Positions 36,800 through 44,964 of a stretch of 64,000 bases of DNA are shown one piece after another. Each line of letters starts with the position of its first letter. Position 1 is the stretch's first letter. The position numbers were made by a program, and so were the translations under genes. Origin of the DNA: Verrucomicrobiaceae bacterium. Lineage in GTDB: Bacteria > Verrucomicrobiota > Verrucomicrobiia > Verrucomicrobiales > Verrucomicrobiaceae. The notes under the pieces are model-generated. The model did not search any database, was not told the origin of the DNA, and saw only the letters and a program-made list of their open reading frames with translations. Location of the stretch: NCBI GenBank assembly GCA_947507875.1, contig CANNQP010000007.1, forward strand, positions 1 to 64,000, in the 5' to 3' direction.

Positions 36800-38167
36800 T
36801 TATTTGTCGAGAAGGATTTCCTTGAGCACACGGCCGTCCTGCTGCGGGAGCTTGAGGTTCATGAGCTGCGCAATCGTTGGTGCCACGTCGAGATTGGCCA
36901 TGCGGTCGAGCACGACGCCTTTCTTGATGCCGCGTCCGCTGGCGATGAAGATGCCATCGAGCTCGGGGTCGCCGCTGAAGAAGCCATGCGTGCCACCGTA
37001 GTTCGTCGTGGGCGTGGTCACGGCATCTCCTGCGGCGGCGTTGTTGAAGGCGTGGTCGGCTTTGGCATAGAGCACGAGATCGCCCATTCCCTGGTTTTCC
37101 TCCGGCGTAGGCATGCCGAGGGTGTGGCCGTCTTTACCTTCGATCACACGTTCAACGCCCTCGGTCTGCTCGAACATGGCCTTGAGCTTCGGCAGCAGCT
37201 CGGCCTTGCGGGCGGGATCGTTCACATAAACGAAGGCCATGCCGCCCTGCGTCATGGCATACGCATCGCAGGTGGTGATCGTGGGGCCAAGAGCGGTGGC
37301 GAGGCCGGCTTTCTTGAGCACGACGTTCGGATAGACATACTTCGACACCTTTTTGAAACCGTGATCCGTTGCGATGACGAAGGTGGTGCGGTCACGCAGG
37401 CCGCTTTCATCGACCGCCTTCACCAAATCGCCGACGAGCTTGTCCGCGTAAGCCAGCGCGGTGTGGCTGGCCATTGATCCGGGACCGTAGGTGTGATGCG
37501 TCGCGTCCGTGTTGAGTGTGTGGAAGAGCAGCAGGTTCGGTTTGTGCGTCTTGAAGATATGAATTGCGGCCTTGGTCCACATGTTGTCGAGAAAGGTCAC
37601 GCTCCTGCGCTTCGGTCCGAGCTGCATCCACTCGATGTGCTCCGGCGTGATCGTGCCAGCGGTGATCATCTCCTTCACGACCGGACTTTCGGCTTCCGGC
37701 AGCTCCGCAAAGCTCCAAGTGATCGTGCCGGGTCGCGTGACGGCCACCCAGTCAGACTCCGCCGTGGTCAGGCCGTTCTGATGCGCAATGTCATACAACG
37801 TGGGCACATGCACCAGTCTCGACTTGTCCACCCATGGCTCGATTTTTGCTGGCTTGTTGCCATCCTGCCGCACGAGCAGACCGTTGAAGAGCACACCGTG
37901 CTTGCGTGGTTCCACGCCAGTGACGAGCGTCGTGTGGTTGATCCAGGTGATGGATGGGTTGCTCACCGTCATCGCTTTGGTGCTCGCACCTTCTGCGGCC
38001 AGTTTGCGGAGGTTCGGCACTTGCAGCGACGGATCGTTCCACATCCAGGCAGGGAAGCCGTCGAGGCTGATCAAGATGACGTGGTGCTCCTTGTTATCCG
38101 ACTTCGAGCAGGCGTTCAAAACGAGCACAATGGCGATGCCGAGGACAAGAAGGGTATTAAGTTTCAT
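36800..38167 (-). CDS. Lipoprotein phosphodiesterase/nucleotide pyrophosphatase family
   Basis: 455 residues of the alkaline-phosphatase superfamily. Lipoprotein signal MKLNTLLVLGIAIVLVLNAC (lipidated C20). The first metal site is ILISLDGFPAWMW; NPSITWINHTTLVTG holds the nucleophile Thr/Ser region of the NPP type; second-half ligands are FHTLNTDATHHTYG, VIATDHGF and GTHGFFSGD. It should hydrolyse phosphodiesters or related esters at the cell envelope. Substrate unknown. It leads a two-gene transcript with DUF1080. Confidence 0.85.
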   Translation of the reverse strand: MKLNTLLVLGIAIVLVLNACSKSDNKEHHVILISLDGFPAWMWNDPSLQVPNLRKLAAEGASTKAMTVSNPSITWINHTTLVTGVEPRKHGVLFNGLLVRQDGNKPAKIEPWVDKSRLVHVPTLYDIAHQNGLTTAESDWVAVTRPGTITWSFAELPEAESPVVKEMITAGTITPEHIEWMQLGPKRRSVTFLDNMWTKAAIHIFKTHKPNLLLFHTLNTDATHHTYGPGSMASHTALAYADKLVGDLVKAVDESGLRDRTTFVIATDHGFKKVSKYVYPNVVLKKAGLATALGPTITTCDAYAMTQGGMAFVYVNDPARKAELLPKLKAMFEQTEGVERVIEGKDGHTLGMPTPEENQGMGDLVLYAKADHAFNNAAAGDAVTTPTTNYGGTHGFFSGDPELDGIFIASGRGIKKGVVLDRMANLDVAPTIAQLMNLKLPQQDGRVLKEILLDK

Positions 38168-39018: not shown

Positions 39019-39621
39019 ATGCCTTGTTATAGTTCTTTTCTTTCGTCATGGATACCTTTTGCGCAGCGTTTGCTTGTTTTGAGTTTGCTAACCACTTCGC
39101 TTCAGGCTGACCCTTCGCAAGGGTGGTCAGGCACGGCACAAATCTTCTTTGAAGGCACCTCTACGCTGCACGATTGGGGTGGCACGGTTACGGCGCGGCC
39201 TTTTCAAACCTCCATCATTCTCGATGCAGCAGGGCAGCCGAAGCGGGTGCAGGCAGAAGTCATCGTTGATGCGATGAAGATGGACACCGCAGAACCGAAG
39301 CGCGATGACAACATGCGAAAGGCGATGAAGGCCAGCGATTATCCTCTGATCAAAGCCGAGCTGGATGTGCCTGCGGAGGCCATTGCCTCCGATTTAAAGA
39401 CCCCCACGCAGTTGCCGATGAAGCTCACTTTGCTAGGCAAGCCTCAATCCATCGTCGGAACGGTTCGCCACTTTCAGCGTAAGCAGGGCAAGGTTACCTT
39501 TGATCTGGACTTCCCCGTTTCCATGAAGGCCAGTGGGATTAGCGTCCCTTCGGTCCTGTTTTTCATCCGCGTAGGCGATGGCGTGAAGGTTCGTGCCTCG
39601 GTTACTCTGGTTCAACTCTGA
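39019..39621 (+). CDS. YceI-family periplasmic lipid-binding protein
   Basis: 200 residues with a signal peptide (AQRLLVLSLLTTSLQA) and a lipocalin-like YceI domain: FEGTSTLHDWGGTV, VDAMKMDTAEPKRDDNMRKAMKASDYPLIKAEL and VGTVRHFQRKQGKVTFDLDFPVSM. YceI proteins bind polyisoprenoids and quinone-like lipids in a beta-barrel. Its stop shares a base with the start of the polyketide synthase (TGATG), so it belongs to that operon. It likely carries or stores the lipid product, which is inference. Confidence 0.88.
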   Translation: MPCYSSFLSSWIPFAQRLLVLSLLTTSLQADPSQGWSGTAQIFFEGTSTLHDWGGTVTARPFQTSIILDAAGQPKRVQAEVIVDAMKMDTAEPKRDDNMRKAMKASDYPLIKAELDVPAEAIASDLKTPTQLPMKLTLLGKPQSIVGTVRHFQRKQGKVTFDLDFPVSMKASGISVPSVLFFIRVGDGVKVRASVTLVQL

Positions 39622-40787
39622 TGCCATCGACGTTCATGCCTGCTTACCTTCATCACATCGCCACCACTACACCGCCCTACACCTACGCGCAAAGTTACAC
39701 GCGGGACCGGCTGAAAGATTGGGCTGGTGATCCGAAAACCAAACGATTGATTCATGCCATCTACAATCGCAGTGGCATCGAGACACGTCACAGCGTGAGT
39801 GGTGACTTTGTCGTCGGCACGGAGGCCACACTGTTCCGCAGCGATGCGGCAGGGGTGCTCATCGCTCCTTCCACGGAAGAGCGGAATCGCGTTTACACAC
39901 ACTGGGCGAAGGAACTGTCCGTGAGTCTGGCTCGTCGGGCGATGGCAGATGCGCCTGGCTTTACCAAAGAGGACATCACGCATGTGATTTACACTTCCTG
40001 CACGGGCTTTGCCAATCCGGGGCCAGATTATCACATCATCAAGGAACTGGGTTTGCGTTCCAATGTCGAGCGCTACACCATCGGCTTCATGGGTTGCTAC
40101 GCGGCGTTTCCATCTCTACGCATGGCGGCCCAGTTTTGCCAAGCGAACCCTGATGCCGTCGTGCTCGTCGTTTGCCTGGAATTGTGCACACTGCACATGC
40201 AGGTGAATGATCAGCCCGATAGCATTTTGGCTAACTCTTTGTTCGCCGACGGTGCGGCTGCGGCGATCGTCAGTGCTCGGCAGCCTACGTCGGGTCGTCC
40301 CGCTTACCGACTGGATGGATTTGAAAGTGCGCTTGTCCCTTCAAGCGAGGCCGAGATGGCTTGGGAGATTGGCAACGAGGGTTTCAACATCGTGCTCTCT
40401 AGCTACGTGCCTGACATCATTGGAGGCAACATTCGCCAGCTGCTGAATGGCGTGCTGAAGCGCCATGACCTGCAGGTGGATGATGTGCACGAGTGGGCGG
40501 TGCATCCCGGGGGGCGGGCCATTCTCGATAAGGTGCAGGAAAGCCTCCATCTTGAGGAAGCCAGCCTGGAGGCCAGTCGCACCATCTTGCGTGATTATGG
40601 GAACATGAGCAGCGCGACGATCCTCTTCGTGCTGAAAGAGATGCTCGACAGTGCGGAAAGCGAATCAGCAACCCTTTGTGCGATGGCCTTTGGCCCGGGG
40701 CTGACCGTCGAAACCGCCGTGATGCAGCGGGTGGGCTGCCCCGCCATATCCGTCACGGAACGTCCAGCAGCTCTTCAGGCTTCGTGA
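39621..40787 (+). CDS. Type III polyketide synthase
   Basis: A 388-residue chalcone/stilbene synthase-fold enzyme. The triad is complete: Cys159 in GFMGCYAAFPSLRMA, His295 in EWAVHPGGRA and Asn328 in YGNMSSATIL. It condenses an acyl-CoA starter with malonyl-CoA to give resorcinols, phloroglucinols or pyrones. CTGFANPGPDYHIIKELGL is normal for the family. The following genes (membrane methyltransferase, flavin hydroxylase, methyltransferase) parallel the Streptomyces srsABC phenolic-lipid cluster, so a long-chain alkylresorcinol or pyrone product is likely, although the starter cannot be read from sequence. A start at 39636 is possible. Confidence 0.92.
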   Translation: MPSTFMPAYLHHIATTTPPYTYAQSYTRDRLKDWAGDPKTKRLIHAIYNRSGIETRHSVSGDFVVGTEATLFRSDAAGVLIAPSTEERNRVYTHWAKELSVSLARRAMADAPGFTKEDITHVIYTSCTGFANPGPDYHIIKELGLRSNVERYTIGFMGCYAAFPSLRMAAQFCQANPDAVVLVVCLELCTLHMQVNDQPDSILANSLFADGAAAAIVSARQPTSGRPAYRLDGFESALVPSSEAEMAWEIGNEGFNIVLSSYVPDIIGGNIRQLLNGVLKRHDLQVDDVHEWAVHPGGRAILDKVQESLHLEEASLEASRTILRDYGNMSSATILFVLKEMLDSAESESATLCAMAFGPGLTVETAVMQRVGCPAISVTERPAALQAS

Positions 40788-40789
40788 GC

Positions 40790-42742
40790 ATGAGTGCAGC
40801 GACCTCTTACACGCCCGCGCAGCGCTACACGGCGCTGGCTTATGGGCTGGTGAGCCATGGCCTGTTCCTCGCCTCGGTGGGGGTGATGTTTTGTAGCCTC
40901 TACAATGGCCTGCATTTCAGCCTTCTGCATGTTCATGGTGGCACAGCAGCGCTGGTGGACGTGCTGTTGGTCATGCAATTTGCGTTAGGCCATACGCTAC
41001 TGCTTTCCGCACGAGGACGTCGGTTCATGGCGCGCCTAGCCCCACTGGGCCTTGGGTCCATCTTGTCCACGACGATCTTTGCCGGTTTGGCATCGGTGCA
41101 GTTGCTGGTGACGTTTTTGCTTTGGTCTTCCAGTGACATCGTGTGGTGGGCACCTCATGGGCTGGTGAAAGGAGGGCTCAGCGTTCTGTATGGCATCTCA
41201 TGGATCATGCTGGCGAAGTCGATGAGCGATGCTGGCTTGGATACGCAGATTGGCATTCTGGGTTGGCGTTCGGTCTGGCGTGGTGAAAAGCCGAGTTATC
41301 AGCCCTTCACACGCACAGGCATGTTCCGCTACAGTCGGCAGCCGATCTATGCTTCGTTCACGCTCATCTTGTGGACTGCGCCCGTTTGGACGCCGGATCA
41401 TCTGGTCATCGCGATGCTTTGGACAGCCTACTGTGTGTGGGCTCCGCTGTTGAAAGAAAAGCGTTACCGCCAGTGGTATGGCATGGCCTTTGAGCGCTAT
41501 CAGCGTCGTGTGTCGTATTGGTTTCCAGCCAAAGCTCGCTCCACTTTTCTCATGAATCATCAACCTACGGATCATGACATCGCCATCGTCGGCGCAGGCC
41601 CTGTGGGTTTGATGTTGGGCTGTTTCTTGGGTGAGCAGGGCCTGCGGGTGCTCCTTGTGGACAAACGTACGGAACCGCTGCAGCACTCGCAGGCGATCGG
41701 CATCACGCCACCATCCTTGGAGATCCTGGCGCGGCTGGGGCTGGATGAGGCCTTCGTTCGGCAGGGAGTGAAAATCCGTGACTGTCAGGTGCATGGTCAC
41801 GTGGGTCATTTGGGCTGTGCCTCATTTCGTGAGATCTCCGGTCCGCATCGCTACATCTTGTCCCTGCCCCAGCAGCAGACAATTCAGCTGTTGGAGTCAC
41901 GGCTCGCGACCATGCCCAACGTGCAACTGCTGCGTGGCATCGAAGCGACCCATATCGAGCAAGATGCAGCCAGCGTCACGTTGATCGGCGATGGTTTGCG
42001 GCGAACGGCCCAGTGGCTTGTTGGGTGTGATGGCCATCGCAGTCGTGTGCGCGAGCTTTTGAAAATGCGGACTTCAGGGGCTTCCTATGGTTGTCACTTT
42101 CTCATGGGGGATTTCATTGACCGAACGAGCTTGAAGGAAGAAGCGCACCTGTGGTTCACACACGACGGTGCGGTGGAATCCTTTCCTCTGCCTGAGGGTC
42201 GGCGACGCTGGATCGTGCAGACGCCAGAACCCATCACGCAGGGTCAGCATGGATTCATCAGTCAATCGGTGCGTGAACGTGCAGGTCTGGAGCTACCTGT
42301 GGCGGATCAGCTCAACCAGAGTCCCTTTTCTCCGCGATGGATGCAGGCGGAGCAGTATCACGATGGGCGCGTGATCTTGTGCGGGGATGCGGCCCATCTC
42401 ATGAGCCCGATCGGAGGTCAGGGCATGAACACCGGTTGGGCCGATGCAGAGTTTCTTGCGGAGGTTTTGATCGCCATCCTGCAGCGAGGCCAAGCTCCCC
42501 TGCCCCTGCTGGAGGCTTATGATCGCTGTCGCCACCGAGCTTCGCAAACGGCCACGGCGCGTGCAGCGCGTGGCATGTGGCTGGGCACGCGCACCGGCGT
42601 CGTGGCCTCCTGGTTGCGCGATGTTTTCATGCGCGAGTGCTTGTTCCGCGGGCCTTTGGCGAAACACATCGGGCCTTACTTCGCCATGCAGACCATTCCT
42701 TACAATACCTTAAAGGCCGTGCCGAAAAAGGTGTGGGCATGA
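40790..42742 (+). CDS. Fusion of ICMT-like membrane methyltransferase and FAD monooxygenase
   Basis: 650 residues. Residues 1-250 hold several membrane segments and end with the isoprenylcysteine-methyltransferase-like motif TRTGMFRYSRQPIYASFTL...LLKEKRYRQWYGMAFERYQRRVSYWFP. Residues 258-650 are a UbiH/PHBH-type flavin monooxygenase: DIAIVGAGPVGLMLGCFLGEQGLRVLLVDKR (FAD), the DG motif VGCDGHRSRVRELL, and GRVILCGDAAHLMSPIGGQGMNTG. In srs-type clusters these are separate proteins. There is no stop between the parts, though an internal ATG at 41552 could also start the oxygenase alone. The start at 40790, three bases after the polyketide synthase stop, is chosen over an upstream one. It would hydroxylate and methylate the polyketide at the membrane. 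Confidence 0.85.
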   Translation: MSAATSYTPAQRYTALAYGLVSHGLFLASVGVMFCSLYNGLHFSLLHVHGGTAALVDVLLVMQFALGHTLLLSARGRRFMARLAPLGLGSILSTTIFAGLASVQLLVTFLLWSSSDIVWWAPHGLVKGGLSVLYGISWIMLAKSMSDAGLDTQIGILGWRSVWRGEKPSYQPFTRTGMFRYSRQPIYASFTLILWTAPVWTPDHLVIAMLWTAYCVWAPLLKEKRYRQWYGMAFERYQRRVSYWFPAKARSTFLMNHQPTDHDIAIVGAGPVGLMLGCFLGEQGLRVLLVDKRTEPLQHSQAIGITPPSLEILARLGLDEAFVRQGVKIRDCQVHGHVGHLGCASFREISGPHRYILSLPQQQTIQLLESRLATMPNVQLLRGIEATHIEQDAASVTLIGDGLRRTAQWLVGCDGHRSRVRELLKMRTSGASYGCHFLMGDFIDRTSLKEEAHLWFTHDGAVESFPLPEGRRRWIVQTPEPITQGQHGFISQSVRERAGLELPVADQLNQSPFSPRWMQAEQYHDGRVILCGDAAHLMSPIGGQGMNTGWADAEFLAEVLIAILQRGQAPLPLLEAYDRCRHRASQTATARAARGMWLGTRTGVVASWLRDVFMRECLFRGPLAKHIGPYFAMQTIPYNTLKAVPKKVWA

Positions 42743-43455
42743 GCCGCTTTCTCATTCCTAGGCTTGCTGCGATAGGCTGGTCTGGCCTACAGAGCAGTGT
42801 GCGAATCCGTGATGTTCAGCCCGAGCTTCTCGAAACTTTCCCGAGCGACCACCCGGCCGCCGTGAAGGGCAGAGAAGACTTGCTGCTGGTGAATGCGGTC
42901 ATGGGAAACCATCGTTGGATGGAAAGCATGCTGCGGCGTCTGCATCAGCCTGGATGGCACATCACCGAGATCGGTGCGGGCGATGGTGAACTCTCGCTGC
43001 GCCTCCACGAGGCGGGGCTTTGCGATGCTCGCGATTTGCATGGCTTGGACTTGGCCCCACGTCCTGCGCGTTGGCCTGCGGAGGCGGCATGGTCGCAAGG
43101 AGACCTTTTTCAGCAGTCGCTGCCGGAGAGTGAGATTCTGATCGCGAACCTCATCCTGCATCATTTTCGTGATGAACAGCTGCGTGATCTCGGCGCTCGC
43201 ATCTCAACGCGCACGCGCTTCATTCTCGCGGCTGAGCCTGAGCGCCGTCGCATTCATGGCTTCATGGGGCATTTTTTTTCTTGGCTAGCCGAGTTGCATC
43301 CGATCACCCGCTACGACATGCAGGTGAGCATTCGCGCAGGTTTTCGTGGAGATGAACTGCGGCAGTTCTTGGGTTTGGGGGCGGAATGGAAGGCTCAGGT
43401 GCGCACGACGCTCTTCGGTGGCTATCGAGTGCTCTTGTCCAGATCAGACGCGTAA
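42739..43455 (+). CDS. Class I SAM-dependent methyltransferase
   Basis: 238 residues from ATG 42739, which overlaps the previous stop (ATGA). Motif I is ITEIGAGDGELSLRLHEAG, followed by ARDLHGLDLAPRP (acidic SAM contact), ILIANLILHHFRDEQL (motif IV) and FILAAEPERRRIHG. The second half (FSWLAELHPITRYDMQVSIRAGFRGDELRQFLG) resembles methyltransferases of aromatic or quinone substrates. It closes the four-gene polyketide operon and most likely O- or C-methylates its ring. Confidence 0.85.
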   Translation: MSRFLIPRLAAIGWSGLQSSVRIRDVQPELLETFPSDHPAAVKGREDLLLVNAVMGNHRWMESMLRRLHQPGWHITEIGAGDGELSLRLHEAGLCDARDLHGLDLAPRPARWPAEAAWSQGDLFQQSLPESEILIANLILHHFRDEQLRDLGARISTRTRFILAAEPERRRIHGFMGHFFSWLAELHPITRYDMQVSIRAGFRGDELRQFLGLGAEWKAQVRTTLFGGYRVLLSRSDA

Positions 43456-43509: not shown

Positions 43510-44964
43510 TCACTTCGCGAGTGTCTTCAAAATCTGCAGCGCCTTCGTTTCGAAGAGCTTCTGCCACTCGGGTGCCACGAGAACATCACAGTCCTCTTGC
43601 GCATACCCGGTATTTCGTCGCTGCGACTCAGTGGCGGTGTACCAGAGGTAGCCATTCGTGTATCCAGAAACGTGGGCGTTGGCATCCTGCGCGGCTTTTT
43701 TGATGTTCAGGCCGACCTGCGCGGTGACCTCGCCAGGAAAGGTGACGAGCTTGAAGGCCCCGACGCGCAAACCGCACACCTCGGCATCAAGTGTGGGACT
43801 GTCCGCGGCCTTTGTGTCGGCGAGGTGCTTTTTCAGCAAGGCGAGGTTCGCATTCAGTCGCGTGAGCTGTTCCATGATCGCGAGATTGCTGAGGTAGGTT
43901 TCGACGAGGGCTTTGTTGTCCGCATCGAGCTGCTGGAGCGACTTGCCGTTGTCGAGATAGCCCTGCGCGTAGTGAGAAGGCATGTTGGGCGAAAGTTTGT
44001 GCTGCATGAGCAGCGGCAGAAAGGTCTTGAAGTTGATGTTCGTGGGCTTCAGGGCCGCCACGAGGCTTCGTTGCTCCGTTTCGATGTTGGCGATGCGCTT
44101 TTCGAAATCGGTGGCGCGGGGCAGTCGGAGGACTTCGCGGCTGATTTTCAGGGTGGCGTCGTTTTGCGGCTCAAATCGACGAATCGCGGCCAAAACGCTC
44201 GCGCCGAGCATGGTGCCGAGGGGCTCGGCATCGGCAGGACGGCTCACTTCTTTGTAATGCACCGGGTTGATGTCGCCGCCGCAGCCTTGGACGAAGAACG
44301 CCATCACGCCGGTGGCCTCCTCGATGACTTTGGAAGCAAAACCAGGATAGTCGGCCGAATTGCCCTTGCTTGGCGGGTTCATGATCGGATGGCAGGCGAA
44401 GTGATACACGATGGCCAGTGGCGTGCCGTCCGCGCGGTCGAGCCGCAGCAGGCCGATCTGCGGATCAATCGGCCCGGTGCTCACCACCTCCTCATCGCGC
44501 GGCATCGAGTAAGCGCGGCGCATGTCGGTCTGCGTGCCGTCTTTGAGGAACATGCGGCGATTCTCGCTGATGCGACTCTCGCTGCCGACTCCAGCGCTCA
44601 CGTTGACCGGCACGAGGTTCTTCGCGGCGTCTCGGATGGCCTGCACGACGAGTTGCTGCAAATCCATGCGCACGATGCCGTGGCAATGGCTCGCATTGAT
44701 GATGACTTCGTCGGCGAGATCGCCGAGTTCCTGCCGCACATTCGCGAGAAAGCCGTTTCCAATGCGTCCGATGCCGCCAATCGCCACCGCATCGACCGTC
44801 ACAAGCACCGCCGTGGTCTCGCCGCTCTTCAAGACCAGCGCTTTGGCAAAACACGGATCATTCAGGGGCACCGTGCGGTCCGTGATGTCCACCTTCGCGA
44901 TGCCGGCGAGGATTTCGGCGTGCAGCGGCAAGCTGAGTAAAAGCAGAAAAAGAAGTGACTTCAT
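43510..44964 (-). CDS. Secreted neutral/alkaline ceramidase-like protein
   Basis: 484 residues with signal peptide MKSLLFLLLLSLPLHA. The N-terminal domain resembles the neutral/alkaline non-lysosomal ceramidase family: AGIAKVDITDRTVPLNDPCFAKALVL, INASHCHG (Zn-binding His), YHFACHPIMNPP (His) and FFVQGCGGDINPV (Gly-Gly-Asp-Ile-Asn). In Planctomycetota and Verrucomicrobiota such proteins are common and probably act on amide or ester bonds in other substrates. Its start overlaps the stop of the ThuA-like gene (ATGA). It is last in a minus-strand trio. Confidence 0.8.
   Translation of the reverse strand: MKSLLFLLLLSLPLHAEILAGIAKVDITDRTVPLNDPCFAKALVLKSGETTAVLVTVDAVAIGGIGRIGNGFLANVRQELGDLADEVIINASHCHGIVRMDLQQLVVQAIRDAAKNLVPVNVSAGVGSESRISENRRMFLKDGTQTDMRRAYSMPRDEEVVSTGPIDPQIGLLRLDRADGTPLAIVYHFACHPIMNPPSKGNSADYPGFASKVIEEATGVMAFFVQGCGGDINPVHYKEVSRPADAEPLGTMLGASVLAAIRRFEPQNDATLKISREVLRLPRATDFEKRIANIETEQRSLVAALKPTNINFKTFLPLLMQHKLSPNMPSHYAQGYLDNGKSLQQLDADNKALVETYLSNLAIMEQLTRLNANLALLKKHLADTKAADSPTLDAEVCGLRVGAFKLVTFPGEVTAQVGLNIKKAAQDANAHVSGYTNGYLWYTATESQRRNTGYAQEDCDVLVAPEWQKLFETKALQILKTLAK

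Follow-up and report, generated by a model that had tools for sequence, protein, structure and literature searches.

Operons of three genes that encode a polyketide synthase, a methyltransferase and a flavin enzyme are well known. YceI proteins are widespread as well, and their physiological ligand and role are disputed. The locus described here joins the two. In a 64-kb window (the whole stretch of DNA that was analysed, 64,000 nucleotides), open reading frames and domain calls place four plus-strand genes end to end at 39019-43455, in the order YceI, type III polyketide synthase, 650-residue fusion protein and SAM methyltransferase (Table 1). The host genome (4.4 Mb) belongs to the Prosthecobacter group of the Verrucomicrobiaceae, its closest named relatives being Prosthecobacter MAGs and Brevifollis gellanilyticus. 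B. gellanilyticus (L036), which can be cultivated, likewise has synthase, fusion and YceI in one cluster. The question arises which lipid these enzymes would make and what a YceI protein would do at the head of their operon. We consider it probable that the locus is a membrane polyketide-lipid operon, a variant of the srsABC/pkqABC and hierridin-type systems, with a dedicated periplasmic YceI lipid carrier.

A sequence-only reading of this DNA had described all four genes as linked by overlaps or a 2-base gap, and the coordinates bear this out. The TGA of YceI shares one base with the ATG of the synthase (39621), 2 bases separate the synthase from the fusion, and the fusion runs into the SAM methyltransferase through an ATGA overlap, so that the overlaps across the run measure 1-4 bases. 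Both flanking genes lie on the opposite strand, one phosphodiesterase/sulfatase-like (36800-38167) and the other neutral-ceramidase-like (43510-44964) by their Pfam matches. By appearance, therefore, 39019-43455 is a single transcription unit.

Table 1. Positions of the operon genes and their predicted domains and residues within the window
Feature	Position	Strand	Basis
YceI-family lipid-binding protein, 200 aa	39019..39621	+	PF04264 37 bits, AlphaFold model
Probable Sec signal peptide of YceI	39019..39108	+	Sequence reading, cleavage suggested after SLQA
Type III polyketide synthase, 388 aa, predicted alkylresorcinol synthase	39621..40787	+	Chal_sti_synt_N/C, PKS18 match
Trp248 codon, cyclisation-switch position	40362..40364	+	CHS Gly256; ArsB Trp281 by inference
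Fused membrane methyltransferase-flavin hydroxylase, 650 aa	40790..42742	+	Single ORF, no stop
MddA-like integral-membrane methyltransferase domain	40790..41530	+	NF045656; RQPIY residues 183-187; KEKR...G...Y motif
Group A flavin aromatic hydroxylase domain, PHBH fold	41573..42742	+	FAD_binding_3; GAGPVG, CDG, GDAAH motifs
Class I SAM-dependent methyltransferase, 238 aa	42739..43455	+	PRK06202-like, NF004851 4e-10

The synthase matches both domains of the chalcone synthase family in Pfam (PF00195/PF02797), and among PDB entries its nearest solved structure by sequence is PKS18. The catalytic triad, which the earlier reading had called complete, is present as Cys159, His295 and Asn328 and is invariant wherever it could be aligned among 67 synthases of the clade. 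Of the same 67 proteins, 65 have Trp at residue 248. Read from an alignment to curcuminoid synthase (Met265 position), this residue falls at Gly256 of chalcone synthase; its equivalence to ArsB Trp281 is suggested by spacing, the direct alignment partner being curcuminoid synthase and not ArsB or ArsC. Trp281 of ArsB goes with resorcinol and Gly284 of ArsC with pyrone formation, and a Trp/Gly exchange flips alkylresorcinol against alkylpyrone synthesis (PMC6274091). Polyketide-quinone synthases likewise have Trp at this cyclisation-switch position (PMC9927152). From the Trp at position 248 the predicted product is a 5-alkylresorcinol, as for ArsB.

The fusion protein consists of a 247-residue N-terminal helical membrane domain and a 390-residue C-terminal flavin monooxygenase, and its AlphaFold model has a mean pLDDT of 87 and a pTM of 0.84. 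The C-terminal part matches FAD_binding_3 in Pfam with 188 bits (4e-55). In VIA-align comparisons its model resembles p-nitrophenol 4-monooxygenase (6ain; Z 44.3, rmsd 2.3, 377 aligned) and p-hydroxybenzoate hydroxylase (PHBH; Z about 42). Judged by this model, the domain is a group A flavin aromatic hydroxylase of the p-hydroxybenzoate-hydroxylase fold. The membrane domain had been labelled ICMT-like in the sequence-only reading; the single 650-residue protein stood, its frame containing no stop, and the label had to be changed to MddA-like. The domain aligns to positions 2-238 of 238 of the MddA family NF045656 (NCBIfam; 5e-21, 75 bits against a cut-off of 270) and reaches 20-21 bits with PEMT (PF04191), under the Pfam cut-off of 25. 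ICMT proper is ruled out, no match to PF04140 being found in Pfam, and MddA proper by the distance of 75 bits from 270, so that the domain is a homologue only. On these profile matches it appears to be a distant MddA relative within the ICMT/PEMT superfamily of membrane methyltransferases. Searched with its profile, other members of the phylum yield proteins that exceed the MddA cut-off, and in the host genome the fusion holds the sole MddA-like sequence. Against PDB sequences the profile gave no match at E 1, and structural comparison of the whole fusion model returned matches to the flavin domain only. All 26 MddA-like domains keep the C-terminal signature E...G..Y..Y...P. The RHPxY motif of the superfamily reads RQPIY in every fused copy and RHPMY in the standalone proteins of L091 and L092; since Gln replaces the motif His, methyl transfer by the fused copies might be reduced or abolished.

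The fusion is not unique to the host but occurs clade-wide in three families. Its reading frame is uninterrupted and of full length in 22 Verrucomicrobiota genomes, with no stop between the two domains in the host or elsewhere: 16 are Verrucomicrobiaceae (host included) and 6 belong to families f34 and f35, and the other 21 proteins are 41-86% identical to the host copy. This distribution rules out an assembly error or frameshift as the source of the fusion. The inter-domain linker measures 15-20 aa; an internal start that yields two separate proteins is unlikely, as no Met is conserved within it. The two parts also occur apart. In one locus (L082) they are adjacent separate genes, in two others (L091, L092) they are set apart by intervening genes, and in many relatives of the same genus the hydroxylase stands alone after the synthase. 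One such hydroxylase-only protein (L108) nests among the fused proteins in the hydroxylase tree, hence at least one lineage has lost the membrane domain. The hydroxylase is joined to the synthase itself in two further genomes, each time in one ORF: with the synthase first in L079:1498-4020 (G382, 841 aa) and with the hydroxylase first in L162:6448-8829 (G061, 794 aa). Repeated fusions in differing orders, along with the split versions, suggest that synthase, hydroxylase and methyltransferase serve one pathway, and we regard such recurrent partner fusions as good evidence for it.

The first gene of the operon encodes a protein that exceeds the PF04264 cut-off of 23.7 bits, and all 32 aligned operon YceI proteins belong to the family; in the host genome it is the only match to this profile. 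Its AlphaFold model (pLDDT 89) is most similar to the polyisoprenoid-binding protein TT1927b, followed by BcnB, BcnA and E. coli YceI, and the polyisoprenoid-binding domain of S. degradans is also among the best PDB fold matches. In Foldseek the comparison with 1wub gives 8e-12 at a probability of 1.00, and the top 21 matches are all YceI-type structures. As modelled, the protein is a lipocalin-like barrel of the YceI type. Its leader is a hydrophobic stretch that ends in an A-type cleavage motif and appears as a low-confidence N-terminal helix in the model; homologues have comparable leaders, and an N-terminal Sec signal peptide is probable. Crystals of YceI lipocalins contain bound octaprenyl compounds or ubiquinone-8, and YceI from periplasmic extracts of N. 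meningitidis carries ubiquinone-8 (PMC9113575).

Is the YceI gene then a part of the operon's system, as the earlier reading had proposed? We surveyed 96 relatives and found 52 synthase loci at least 57% identical to the host synthase (close loci). A Pfam YceI match lies on the same contig in 39 of these 52, and nearly all of these genes are on the same strand, immediately upstream of the synthase and 11-42 nt away; two further close loci (G038, G051) have YceI by direct similarity. Altogether YceI is the gene immediately before the synthase at about 40 of the 52 close loci, and roughly one in four close Verrucomicrobiota loci lacks it. Since genomes of 3-8 Mb hold some two YceI genes each, we estimate the chance of such adjacency at less than 1 in 1000 per locus, which against 39 of 52 rules out a chance neighbour. 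YceI is also present in every locus with the MddA-like domain that was used, fused or separate (26/26, the G094 locus described below included), and it recurs in other families where the synthases are only 38-58% identical (L073, L074-L078, L082, L086, L087, L091, L092, L160-L162). These counts uphold the proposal. It is quite improbable that YceI is a conserved hitch-hiker, tied to the MddA-like methyltransferase or to an unrelated envelope function, that binds no polyketide. One locus (L112:7014-8749, G094) would fit such a protein, with YceI immediately before a standalone MddA-like gene and the synthase on another contig. However, many loci without an MddA-like domain also have YceI before the synthase (L073, L110, L113, L117-L119, L121, L123, L124), which links it to the pathway as a whole.

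The sequence-only reading had also suggested a search of other phyla for YceI beside type III synthases. Within Verrucomicrobiota the pairing is common; at seven loci of Deinococcus, Actinomycetota, Planctomycetota and Proteobacteria, searched in plasmid records, neither annotation nor the YceI profile revealed one. Operons of Deinococcus, Planctomycetota and Proteobacteria contain synthase, hydroxylase and methyltransferase without YceI. Together with the quarter of close loci that lack the gene, they indicate that YceI is not required for making the lipid.

The gene content of related operons bears on the nature of this lipid. In several relatives a homologue occupies the position of the class I SAM methyltransferase that ends the host operon. 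In operons of family f34 a gene for 683-699 aa (an MMPL-family transporter in L078) stands between synthase and fusion, and a UbiE/COQ5 methyltransferase follows the fusion; the full order in L078 (G124) is YceI, synthase, MMPL, fusion, UbiE, methyltransferase. Known pathways use UbiE to methylate quinone rings, and MMPL proteins are lipid transporters. By analogy, these two independent operon contents suggest a quinone-like lipid destined to leave the inner membrane. In the host window no MMPL gene adjoins the operon. Another family of the host's order has contiguous same-strand genes for hydroxylase, synthase, MMPL, UbiE methyltransferase and YceI (L161:4927-10846, G064).

Several other neighbours were noted. 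Upstream of YceI, a gene of about 1000 aa in the same direction is found in many congeners, namely in L093, L094, L096-L102, L118, L119 and L132 (an AcrB-type RND transporter in L093) and is absent from the window. Downstream at hydroxylase-only loci, a CMAS-like methyltransferase and KAS II are encoded in L118 and an ACP in L114, and genes of the same size recur in L113, L115-L117 and L119-L121; perhaps they supply the acyl starter or form a separate lipid cluster. A histidine kinase (L078:9674-10858, f34) and a response regulator (L082:5418-6167, f28) adjoin their operons in opposite orientation. Operon genes without a Pfam match lie amid YceI, synthase and methyltransferase genes in L082:7978-9339 (454 aa), L086:1771-2499 (243 aa), L087:8497-9108 (204 aa) and L091:9791-10303 (171 aa).

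It might be possible that the product is instead a methoxylated phenolic lipid of the hierridin kind, or an alkylpyrone, serving as envelope component or antibiotic; the hydroxyl added by the flavin enzyme would then be capped with methyl. The hidABC genes lead to hierridin B through hydroxylation and O-methylation, and planctomycetal synthases make alkylresorcinol and C-methylalkylresorcinol (PMC10896814); the host operon, moreover, has two methyltransferases on hand for such capping. Against this, Trp248 argues against a pyrone, and the UbiE-type C-methyltransferases of the relatives favour a quinone, a resorcinol ether and a quinone being indistinguishable at the level of sequence. Overall we regard the phenolic lipid or pyrone as somewhat doubtful. 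The pathway to a methylated, hydroxylated alkylresorcinol or alkylquinone, predicted before any comparison was made, gains support from the triad, the Trp switch, the PHBH-fold hydroxylase and the UbiE-type methyltransferases in relatives.

Gene order, domain identities, folds, conservation and the co-occurrence of YceI are observed, and from them we infer the structure of the product, the order of the steps, the ligand of YceI and the direction of its transport. The synthase would extend a long-chain acyl-CoA or acyl-ACP by three malonyl (or methylmalonyl) units and close the ring by aldol cyclisation to a 5-alkylresorcinol. The MddA-like domain would anchor the fusion in the inner membrane and methylate the ring or a phenolic oxygen, while the cytosolic flavin domain would hydroxylate the ring; through the fusion of both domains the greasy intermediate could stay on the enzyme. 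The methyltransferase of the last gene would add another methyl group, and oxidation would yield the quinone, by analogy to srsABC and pkqABC (PMC9927152). The hydroquinone or quinone lipid would then sit in the periplasmic barrel of YceI, which would shield it and ferry it across the periplasm; an MMPL exporter, where encoded, might load YceI. That YceI would bind the product is suggested by its fold, by the ubiquinone-8 found in other YceI proteins (PMC9113575) and by the co-occurrence of the genes. We put forward only tentatively, with somewhat less than even confidence, that a pathway-specific YceI, together with MMPL in some lineages, forms a route reserved for the trafficking of a polyketide quinone that the fusion finishes.

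A quinone lipid could also be made and held by a YceI protein that is no transporter but a periplasmic redox-active antioxidant, quenching lipid peroxyl radicals. The BcnA/LcoA model describes such a protein, BcnA with bound ubiquinone-8 (PMC9113575); BcnA and BcnB are among the closest folds to the host protein, which would possess a dedicated quinone of its own. Yet among the neighbours of YceI that were identified at the loci examined, none was recognised as a cytochrome b561 (LcoA-like) gene, and the MMPL exporter neighbours in distant operons favour transport. We therefore think this antioxidant role unlikely. In either function the polyketide lipid would not be the only quinone of the host, which keeps MenA and a strong UbiE match, and a replacement of menaquinone is rejected for this reason. 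Rather, the polyketide lipid would serve in addition to menaquinone, be it as alternative electron carrier, as antioxidant or as lipid of the envelope. Polyketide-quinone chemistry is known in actinomycetes for alternative electron carriers, and our findings would extend it to Verrucomicrobiota. Across dozens of species, genome organisation ties a YceI protein to the synthesis of one specific lipid. If the carrier proposal is true, a YceI protein would here have its natural ligand encoded by the same pathway, and the cell a pool of quinone beyond the inner membrane.

In the limited open-access literature that we searched, neither the fusion of methyltransferase and hydroxylase nor the phylum-wide YceI linkage is described, and searches for YceI with a type III polyketide synthase, or for a polyisoprenoid-binding protein with a polyketide synthase, returned nothing on this topic. 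An operon-encoded carrier, held to be a new idea in the earlier reading, is not wholly new in that a 'lipid/isoprenoid-binding protein' gene of Saltatorellus ferox was listed in 2024 and left uninterpreted (PMC10896814). It belongs to a type III PKS operon with two methyltransferases and a lipoprotein; no oxidoreductase is named there, and the wording of the gene's description agrees with the name of the YceI family. Milke et al. demonstrated alkylresorcinol formation by planctomycetal synthases from operons of this kind; these operons and hierridin hidABC have the same three enzyme types as the host, and no fusion is reported (PMC10896814). The srsABC operon of Streptomyces griseus and the pkqABC operon of Mycobacterium smegmatis likewise combine synthase, methyltransferase and flavin oxidoreductase, with Trp at the switch; their methyltransferase and hydroxylase are separate, whereas in the host an MddA-like membrane methyltransferase is fused to the hydroxylase. 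The accessible part of that account describes no YceI or MMPL gene in either (PMC9927152), in contrast to the YceI of the host operon. Deinococcus operons (e.g. D. radiodurans, L134) have a synthase 48-53% identical to that of the host and a homologous flavin enzyme, which is unfused; their methyltransferase is soluble, unlike the membrane domain of the host, and they are without YceI. MddA, a methanethiol S-methyltransferase, is homologous to the N-terminal domain over its full length and probably belongs to the same membrane-enzyme superfamily, but the host domain is fused to a hydroxylase, has RQPIY for RHPxY and stands in a different genomic setting. TT1927b, E. coli YceI and BcnA/BcnB share fold and periplasmic-type leader with the host YceI, which differs from these known lipocalins in its diverged sequence, its GTSTLHDW motif and its tie to a polyketide operon. 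Set beside these systems, the operon appears as a real, conserved variant of a known pathway, and the idea of a carrier is well motivated.
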